In this document: piece after piece, positions 10,871 to 42,553 of the stretch
How the letters are laid out: each line of letters opens with the position of its first letter
Numbering within the stretch: the stretch's first letter is position 1
Assembly (NCBI RefSeq): GCF_001592435.1
Contig: NZ_CP014750.1
Span: 868,001-932,000 of the forward strand
From: Thermococcus peptonophilus
GTDB lineage: Archaea; Methanobacteriota_B; Thermococci; Thermococcales; Thermococcaceae
DNA: 64,000 bases
Direction of reading: 5' to 3'
Position numbers and translations under genes: made by a program
The notes under the pieces: generated by a model
Told to the model about the DNA's origin: nothing
Seen by the model: the letters and a program-made list of their open reading frames with translations, nothing else
The model's database searches: none

Positions 10871-10948
10871 GCCCGGGTGGTGTAGCCCGGCCTATCATAC
10901 GGGACTGTCACTCCCGTGACCCGGGTTCAAATCCCGGCCCGGGCGCCA
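10871..10948 (+). tRNA. tRNA-Asp (GTC)
   Basis: A 78-base cloverleaf with acceptor arms GCCCGGG and CCCGGGC, anticodon loop CTGTCAC (anticodon GTC), T arm GGGTTCAAATCCC and an encoded CCA. It is only 4 bases after the 5S rRNA gene, so the two are probably one transcript. Its 3' end faces the structured repeat that begins nearby. Confidence 0.96.
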
Positions 10949-11295
10949 GACCTTCTCACATTCTTAAGCAAGCTTTTGGAAAAGCTTGGCCAAGGAAACT
11001 TTGCTTGCAAGGTTTCATCAAAGTTGGTGGTTCTTGTTTGTAAATGGTTTTGAAAGGGATTTTTCATTAAGGGCTCTTGTTTAAGTGTGAATTCAATTTC
11101 AGTGAGAGCTTTCGGGGTGAGTTTGCTTTGTAATCGACGCCCGTAGGGCGTCAAAGGGAGAGAAACTCTTGTTCACTGAGCAATAGTTGGGAATTCACTA
11201 ATTTTTAGCACGTACGCAAGAAAATCCTCAGAAAACAGCAATTTTGGAAAAGAACCACGAACCTTGATCAAACTCAATGGGACTGTCGTCCCGTG

Positions 11296-11345: not shown

Positions 11346-11467
11346 ACCAAAAGGTTTCCCTTTCCTTTTGAACTTGCCTGTTGATGAGCGTATGCTCACT
11401 CAAAAAGCAACTTTGCGCGGGTTTAATCTTGAAGTTCCCCCACTAATTGTGATTTTGACTGTCTTTT

Positions 11468-11486
11468 TAGTGCCCTTTGGGCACTA
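11468..11486. repeat. Covarying hairpin, copy 1
   Basis: TAGTGCCC-TTT-GGGCACTA is a perfect 8-bp stem with a 3-base loop. Relative to copy 2 (42343-42361) two stem pairs differ, and both changes are compensated on the other strand of the stem (T-A to C-G and C-G to T-A). Confidence 0.85.
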
Positions 11487-11605
11487 TACGGTGATAAAAT
11501 CCAGTAAGTTTGGCAAATTGATGAGAGAAACCCCTCATAAAATTAGCCTCTATTTAAAAAAGCATACCAACTTTCCGCCAGCGCTTTCGTAAGAAAGGGC
11601 TGCTG

Positions 11606-11746
11606 TGGTGGGGGCGCGGGGATTTGAACCCCGGTCCGCGGGTTTCTCCGGGTCAGAGCTCCAAAGGCTCATCCCCCAATCAGCAAACCCGCAAGTCCTC
11701 ATACCTCTGGAGCCCGCGATGATGGACCAGGCTACACCACGCCCCC
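11606..11746 (-). tRNA. tRNA-Trp (CCA) with intron
   Basis: The mature parts form a cloverleaf with acceptor arms GGGGGCG and CGCCCCC, T arm GGGTTCAAATCCC and an encoded CCA. Anticodon CCA follows CTC in the loop. An intron of about 63 bases (11644-11706) follows position 37, the standard archaeal place cut by the bulge-helix-bulge endonuclease. A TATA-like CTTATAAAC on the minus strand near 11775-11783 is about 30 bases upstream. Exon 1 is 11707-11746 and exon 2 about 11606-11643. Confidence 0.94.
11644..11706 (-). ncRNA. Box C/D 2'-O-methylation guide within the tRNA-Trp intron
   Basis: Read on the minus strand, the intron has box C-like ATGAGGA, box D' CTGA, box C'-like GGGATGA and box D CTGA. 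The 5th base upstream of box D pairs with C34 of the same tRNA (guide TTTGGAGC against the anticodon region GCTCCAGA). The 5th base upstream of box D' pairs with position 39 (guide GCGGGTTT against AAACCCGC). This reproduces the arrangement known in euryarchaeal pre-tRNA-Trp, which guides methylation at 34 and 39. Intron ends are inferred to within one or two bases. Confidence 0.88.
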
Positions 11747-41900: not shown

Positions 41901-42475
41901 TTGCCAAGAAACTTTGCCCGACAAAGTTTCATCAAAGTTTGTAGCTCCTTCTTCCCAAGAATGTTTTATTCAAGATTTTGGACTGCAAGTGCTCATTTTT
42001 GAGTGAGAACATGCTTGGAAAGACTTCTCAAAAAGTGTTTTCTTTCCTTTGACGCCCAAAGGGAATCGATTTAGGGCTAAACACGCGTTAAACTGGTGAG
42101 TTTGAGAGTTCTCACATTCAAGAACAGCTGTTTGGTGGGAAAAGCACGACGAATTAGGATTCTAAAAAAGAGCTACGAACCCTGATCAAACTTCGCGCAG
42201 GAGGCTTTTGGGAAAAGCTTGACCAAAAGTGCGCCCTTCTTCTCGAACTTTCCTTATTGATGAGTGTATGCTCTACCAGAAAGCAAGTTCACGCGGGTTT
42301 ACTCCCAAAATCTCTCGTTAATAATGATTTCAAACTTTCTTTTAGCGCTCTTCGAGCGCTATACTGTGAGAAAATCCTGTAAATCTAGCAACTCGATAGT
42401 AAACCCTCTCAAAAGCTAGCTCATTAAAAACACATACCAACTTTCCACCAGCGCTTTCGCAAGAAAGGACTGTTA
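41901..42475. repeat. Structured non-coding repeat, copy 2 (next to tRNA-Ala)
   Basis: This 575-base region without a gene aligns colinearly with 10986-11605. Shared landmarks in order are GCCAAG(G)AAACTTTG, GTTTCATCAAAGTT, CGAACC-TGATCAAACT, CGCGCAGGA, TTTTGGGAAAAGCTT, TTGATGAG-GTATGCTC, CGCGGGTTTA, AGCGCT-N5-AGCGCT and CATACCAACTTTCC. Its right end abuts the CCA of tRNA-Ala, exactly as copy 1 abuts tRNA-Trp. The reading frame that is open in copy 1 contains many stops here, so the element is not protein-coding. Confidence 0.85.
42343..42361. repeat. Covarying hairpin, copy 2
   Basis: TAGCGCTC-TTC-GAGCGCTA is a perfect 8-bp stem, equivalent to 11468-11486. Both differing stem positions are compensated, so pairing is kept in each copy. 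Confidence 0.85.
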
Positions 42476-42553
42476 TGGTGGACCGGGCGGGATTTGAACC
42501 CGCGGCCTCCGCCTTGCGAGGGCGGCGCTCATACCAGGCTGAGCTACCGGCCC
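42476..42553 (-). tRNA. tRNA-Ala (CGC)
   Basis: A 78-base cloverleaf on the minus strand: acceptor arms GGGCCGG and CCGGTCC (one G-T pair), anticodon loop CTCGCAA (anticodon CGC), T arm GGGTTCAAATCCC and encoded CCA. No intron. Its 3' end abuts repeat copy 2. A TTTTTAAAG on the minus strand near 42584-42592 is a candidate TATA box. Confidence 0.95.

Follow-up and report, generated by a model that had tools for sequence, protein, structure and literature searches.

The window considered here, a stretch of 64,000 nucleotides of the Thermococcus peptonophilus genome, contains two copies of a short hairpin, TAGTGCCC-TTT-GGGCACTA and TAGCGCTC-TTC-GAGCGCTA, both of which are found exactly at the positions given for them in an earlier note (11468-11486 and 42343-42361). 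The two stems differ at two pairs, one changing from T-A to C-G and the other from C-G to T-A, and both differences are compensated. This raises the question of what the hairpin belongs to, and whether its complementarity is maintained as RNA structure or as a palindrome in DNA. The 8-bp hairpin described in the earlier note is real; however, the 19 bp assigned to it are too small an extent. It is the apex of a nested palindrome of about 250 bp, which is one unit of a Thermococcus repeat family. The features of the units in the window are collected in Table 1.

Table 1. Repeat units and associated tRNA genes in the window (positions within the window).
Feature	Position	Strand	Evidence or remark
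Apex hairpin of copy 1, type A, TAGTGCCC/GGGCACTA	11468..11486	-	sequence, 15-copy alignment
Core of copy 1	11419..11532	-	R1 match of 114.9 bits, tRNA-sense strand
Ring 1 arm of copy 1, GATTTT on +	11451..11456	-	about 22 nt from hairpin centre; partner 11496-11502
Ring 1 partner arm of copy 1, AAAATCC on +	11496..11502	-	
Ring 2 arm of copy 1, GGGTTT on +	11419..11424	-	partner AAACCC 11528-11533
Ring 2 partner arm of copy 1, AAACCC on +	11528..11533	-	
Ring 3 arm of copy 1, GTATGC on +	11390..11395	-	partner GCATAC 11562-11567
Ring 3 partner arm of copy 1, GCATAC on +	11562..11567	-	
tRNA-proximal conserved hairpin of copy 1, CAGC..CTTTC-loop-GAAAG..GCTG	11579..11602	-	
Intron-containing tRNA-Trp gene, anchor of copy 1 at its 3' end	11606..11746	-	hairpin centre 130 nt from CCA
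Third unit, type C, weaker	11089..11196	-	R1 match of 27.7 bits; downstream of tRNA-Asp (10871-10948), facing copy 1
Apex hairpin of copy 2, type A, TAGCGCTC/GAGCGCTA	42343..42361	-	sequence, 15-copy alignment
Core of copy 2	42295..42406	-	R1 match of 115.3 bits
Ring 1 arm of copy 2, GATTTC on +	42326..42331	-	partner AAAATCC 42371-42377
Ring 1 partner arm of copy 2, AAAATCC on +	42371..42377	-	
Ring 2 arms of copy 2, GGGTTTA and TAAACCC	42295-42301 and 42400-42406		the two ends of the core
Ring 3 arm of copy 2, GTATGC on +	42266..42271	-	partner ACATAC 42432-42437, one mismatch
tRNA-proximal conserved hairpin of copy 2	42449..42472	-	
tRNA-Ala(CGC) gene, anchor of copy 2 at its 3' end	42476..42553	-	hairpin centre 125 nt from CCA

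A search of the 1.9-Mb genome, G000, with the sequence treated as DNA yields 13 long matches, and covariation was assessed in an alignment of 15 copies, all from T. peptonophilus. The apex stem is paired at 95.8%, with 5 of 120 cells unpaired. Changes on both sides occur at four of its eight pairs, giving 16 double-changed cells and no one-sided cell. The alignment of further copies, which the earlier note had proposed as a check, thus confirms the covariation of the stem within this genome. In that note, uncompensated changes at rates similar to those of the flanks would refute the claim; the 15 copies contain no one-sided cell, but the pairing is not absolute, as a few copies (L009, L011, L012) carry uncompensated mismatches. 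Two further helices, GGRTTT/AAAYCC and GGGTTTA/TAAACCC, flank the apex stem. When all three helices are taken together, the number of double-changed cells is 19, compared with 7.0 in shuffled alignments, and none of 500 shuffles reaches as high a value. The covariation is far above the level of chance. A covariance model of 114 nt, R1, finds 28 sites in the genome at E<1e-5. When the family is sampled through 122 distinct matches, pairing in the 8-bp stem amounts to 95.7% and covariation is seen in each of the three helices (397 double-changed cells versus 104 after shuffling), with 94.3% pairing overall compared with 31-53% when the partners are slid. As the alignment of these matches is fitted to the structure, an alignment-free comparison of each arm with its own partner constitutes the stronger evidence.

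According to the apex stem, four unit types can be distinguished: A (TAGYGYYC, the reported hairpin), B (TAACGYYC), C (GACGYYC), and D (GGCGYYC). Between the halves of a unit, complementary 6-mers are concentrated at distances of 22.0, 52.6, 83.5, and 114.2 nt from the hairpin centre (sd 1.3-3.2), forming concentric rings with a spacing of 30.6-30.9 nt, or about 30.7 nt. The offsets are common to types A-D although the arm sequences differ (for example GATTCTC, GAATTC, and GTGAGAAC). The fourth ring is strong in type C, and rings 1 and 2 share, in several types, a GG.TTT consensus reading towards the centre. In rings 1-4, a perfect 6-bp match to the unit's own partner is found in 70%, 71%, 60%, and 22% of units, compared with 39%, 49%, 43%, and 16% when the partner is taken from a different unit of that type, and 16%, 19%, 3%, and 5% when it is taken from a unit of another type. 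This test is independent of the structure-fitted alignment, while the percentages are not independent counts, because units within a type are related. The gaps between the rings are paired in 1-4% of units, which is no more than in mispaired controls. The two halves stay matched while their sequence changes, and hence the symmetry itself appears to be selected. The earlier view that complementarity rather than sequence is under selection is therefore supported, and it reaches far past the 8-bp stem. A phase-coherent A/T component of 10.25-10.5 bp (about 10.3 bp) is present in all four types; it may be just the third harmonic of the 30.7-bp module and is hence not independent proof. Mutual information calculated over the full 329-column type A alignment was uninformative, being dominated by differences between first and later units.

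The units are anchored behind tRNA genes. For 27 of the 28 units in T. peptonophilus, the 3' end of a tRNA is no more than 1.2 kb upstream (0.7 units on average under random placement), the tRNA set comprising the RF00005 tRNAs, two intron-bearing tRNAs, and one tRNA fragment. In a relative, G011, for which intron-bearing tRNAs were left out, the same holds for 31 of 40 units, the random mean for both genomes being 0.7-0.9. Over all loci examined, 97 units share their locus with a tRNA, and 95 of them lie 3' of it; some of these loci were retrieved by a query containing tRNA sequence, which does not apply to the genome-wide R1 searches. On its tRNA side, the element begins directly after the CCA. 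The median distance from the CCA to the first hairpin centre, based on first units behind 24 tRNA labels, is 124-125 nt for types A, B, and D and 155 nt for type C, whose centre is placed one module further from the tRNA. Units occur singly or in tandem, with several types mixed within one array. They are found behind about half of the tRNA loci in T. peptonophilus, and the tRNAs that carry them vary between species. Between the CCA and the core, 26 of 48 first units contain a run of five or more T, mostly 40-49 nt after the CCA, which is where an archaeal transcript is expected to end.

R1 matches occur in 39 of 41 genomes of the genus at E<=0.01 and in 60 of 94 genomes of the family Thermococcaceae, representing four of six genera, at E<=1e-5, reaching about 40 matches per genome in Thermococcus, whereas nine genomes of the sister genus g12 give none. 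The tRNA-proximal hairpin, searched for as the pattern ACAGCCCTTNCTNNCGNAAGCGCTGGCGG, has the same distribution (62 of the 94 family genomes, none in g12), and its reversed control has no match among the 94. Because the units are present at only about half of tRNA loci and absent from one sister genus, tRNA expression does not in general depend on the element. A cmscan against Rfam of the window and five further loci, three of them with units, returns only 5S rRNA and tRNA. An origin from plasmids, phages, or viral contigs was also considered, and the collections of each contain no match. The Y1 transposase domain PF01797 has one match in G011 and three in G034, and none in T. peptonophilus or in G033, which also has many units. 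Consequently, mobilisation of the REP/RAYT kind by a resident Y1 transposase is ruled out for T. peptonophilus. In the accessible portions of the Thermococcales ncRNA and transcriptome papers, tRNAs are mentioned and such repeats are not; nor does a wider literature search, with subscription journals largely outside its reach, yield a description of the element.

The explanation favoured here, which is put forward tentatively and at slightly under even confidence, is that the unit, a palindrome of about 250 bp with dyad symmetry located behind tRNA genes, is selected as DNA, either because a host factor recognises its form or because it acts as a boundary. Each unit combines an apex stem of 7-8 bp with complementary arms of 6-7 bp, which form three or four concentric rings, while the intervening stretches are hardly ever complementary. 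The modules of about 30.7 bp are close to three helical turns, and the first unit is set at a fixed distance from the CCA end of the tRNA. The form recognised by the host factor could be a symmetric nucleoprotein complex or a cruciform. Alternatively, the unit could serve as a boundary behind strongly transcribed tRNA genes, where the proximal hairpin and the T-run would end transcription and the symmetric 30.7-bp modules would organise the DNA beyond. The function proposed is that of a transcription boundary or terminator element behind tRNA genes, probably with such a symmetric nucleoprotein or cruciform form. Against this explanation, most arms are short and A/T-rich, so that at 80-95 C the outer rings would by themselves pair only weakly.

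Mismatches in the helices bear on the choice between DNA and RNA. On the tRNA-sense strand, the CM-aligned helices contain 46 G·U and 34 A·C mismatches. When the arms are found with mismatch types treated equally, the numbers are 41 and 26 (p=0.09), and the apex stem contains 20 of each. By comparison, tRNA stem positions of the same loci contain 10 G·U and no A·C (Fisher p 0.003-0.014 versus the unit helices); this control uses unbiased stem positions, as ARAGORN bracket pairs were dropped because of their bias to standard pairs. RNA folding z is about equal on both strands, with a mean of about -2.5 to -4.4, below shuffles; folds at 85 C retain only some rings, and R1 matches both strands of many units. 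The near-equal numbers of G·U and A·C, the strand-neutral folding, and the T-run before the core together favour a property of DNA. Selection on complementarity is therefore more likely to act at the DNA level than at the RNA level, although some RNA-level selection may be reflected in the slight excess of G·U over A·C (41:26). The alternative left undecided by the earlier note now leans towards a DNA palindrome. A structured ncRNA, produced either as the 3' trailer of a tRNA or from a promoter of its own and folded as a rod of 6-8 bp helices with large internal loops, is unlikely, though still a serious contender. It would account for the strong covariation, the folding energies below those of shuffles, and the steady polarity relative to the tRNA, since R1 matches the tRNA-sense strand in 84 of 95 units. 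However, it does not fit the lack of a consistently better-folding strand, an A·C frequency nearly equal to that of G·U, unlike in tRNA, or the T-run that separates about half of the first units from their tRNA. Moreover, 6-bp A/U-rich helices over 24-nt loops would be poorly stable at the growth temperature, and Rfam has no matching family.

Selection on DNA could also take forms other than the favoured one. The fixed CCA distance and the presence in about two-thirds of the family genomes suggest long-term maintenance, which is difficult to reconcile with a non-autonomous mobile or recombining palindromic repeat of the REP/BIME or MITE kind, having no host function and kept symmetric through recognition of its folded DNA by a recombinase or transposase. 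The lack of an IS200-type Y1 transposase in T. peptonophilus and G033, and of units in the phage, plasmid, and viral collections, likewise speaks against such a repeat. It is nevertheless what the multicopy, tandem, and mixed arrays, the varying carrier tRNAs, a terminal hairpin standing alone between protein genes, and one unit lacking a tRNA would resemble, and it is regarded as improbable without being far-fetched. It is rather doubtful that the rings are sites of a sequence-specific DNA-binding protein, that is, GGNTTT-like sequences every 30.7 bp, inverted about the dyad and lying on one helix face. The GG.TTT consensus of rings 1 and 2 and the spacing near three turns would be explained, but arms differ between types, and an arm matches the partner within its unit better than the corresponding arm of a different unit of its type, which would not follow from a fixed recognition sequence. 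Finally, the arms could be kept complementary without selection, by template-switch (quasi-palindrome) correction during replication. Two hairpin copies alone are compatible with such concerted correction, and compensated changes with few one-sided intermediates, as in the apex stem, are its expected outcome. However, tracts of such correction would be expected to leave the inter-ring stretches paired as well, and the rings hold fixed offsets in all types. The ring pattern with its unpaired gaps thus argues against correction, which is very improbable.

Several known systems resemble the units in part, REP/BIME palindromes and tRNA-linked repeats most closely. REP/BIME elements are repetitive extragenic palindromes of bacteria associated with a Y1 transposase. 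The unit is likewise a non-coding palindromic repeat, multicopy, clustered, and situated 3' of genes, and the family fits the general definition of extragenic palindromic repeats, with 28 matches at E<1e-5, nearly all behind tRNAs. It differs in its length of about 250 bp, its nested rings at 30.7 nt, its fixed distance from tRNA 3' ends, its archaeal host, and the lack of a Y1/RAYT-type transposase in the T. peptonophilus genome. The tRNA-linked repeats of E. coli (tyrT repeats, RtT RNA) are also tandem repeats directly behind a tRNA gene. However, tyrT repeats include the tRNA 3' end and occur in one operon only, whereas the present units are palindromic, begin after the CCA, and lie behind many tRNAs. 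In integron attC sites, selection acts on palindromic structure rather than sequence, and arrays consist of variable units, as here; the present ring structure is much longer. The sRk48/sRk52 RNAs are transcripts of about 130 nt with 1-6 copies per genome, six of them in P. abyssi (Phok 2011, PMC3124441). As described there, they too form a repetitive intergenic Thermococcales family with covarying stems, and they differ in copy number from the present units, which have up to about 40 matches per genome in Thermococcus.

An archaeal histone dimer wraps 30 bp and the hypernucleosome has a 30-bp step (PMC10516927). The repeat length on DNA is thus similar, but histones represent a binding mode rather than a sequence family. 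Because histones alone cannot explain covarying complementarity, a link between the 30.7-bp module and the 30 bp of the histone is offered only as a suggestion. It is rather unlikely, if conceivable, that the units represent a previously undescribed class of archaeal boundary element, in which modular DNA palindromes with a 30.7-bp step matching that of histones, placed at a fixed distance behind tRNA genes, would halt transcription and position or exclude chromatin, their half-site complementarity being selected. If the DNA reading is true, the units would be an unusual case in which the complementarity of an inverted repeat is selected across more than 200 bp, with a module resembling the helical repeat, and tRNA genes would be linked to boundaries of transcription or to chromatin. 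If they are instead selected as RNA, the units would constitute a large archaeal RNA family absent from Rfam. The question is experimentally approachable, as the genus includes a genetically tractable model, Thermococcus kodakarensis.

Several loci show further peculiarities. The tRNA-Trp(CCA) gene of the window (11606-11746, minus strand) is missed by plain tRNA searches, and its intron seemingly contains a box C-like motif, GATGATG, identified by eye. Four same-strand tRNA genes (Ser, Leu, Pro, Leu), about 2 kb apart at G000:C1 1426500-1434500 (L122), carry no unit. Beside one array there is a 3' fragment that matches tRNA-Val(TAC), at about G000:C1 258630-258674 (L107 1130-1174); the intact gene is found at a distance of 2.7 kb. 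About 123 nt separate the end of this fragment from the unit centre, a normal distance, as would be expected to result from integration of a mobile element into a tRNA already followed by its array; the arrangement resembles the attR of a small integrated element. The sole R1 unit of the genome without an adjoining tRNA or tRNA fragment, at G000:C1 1406689-1406800 (L106 1190-1300), retains the GGCGTCC apex hairpin and a terminal hairpin. A solitary tRNA-proximal hairpin, with no tRNA or core unit near, is found at about G000:C1 818115-818139 (L030 1513-1537) between two protein genes, which by eye are pyrB and pyrI (aspartate carbamoyltransferase). Another lone hairpin, CAAACTTCGC/GCGAAGTTTG, lies without a core unit directly behind tRNA-Arg(CCG), at about G000:C1 1266789-1266812 (L115 1290-1313), and is perhaps the remnant of an array.
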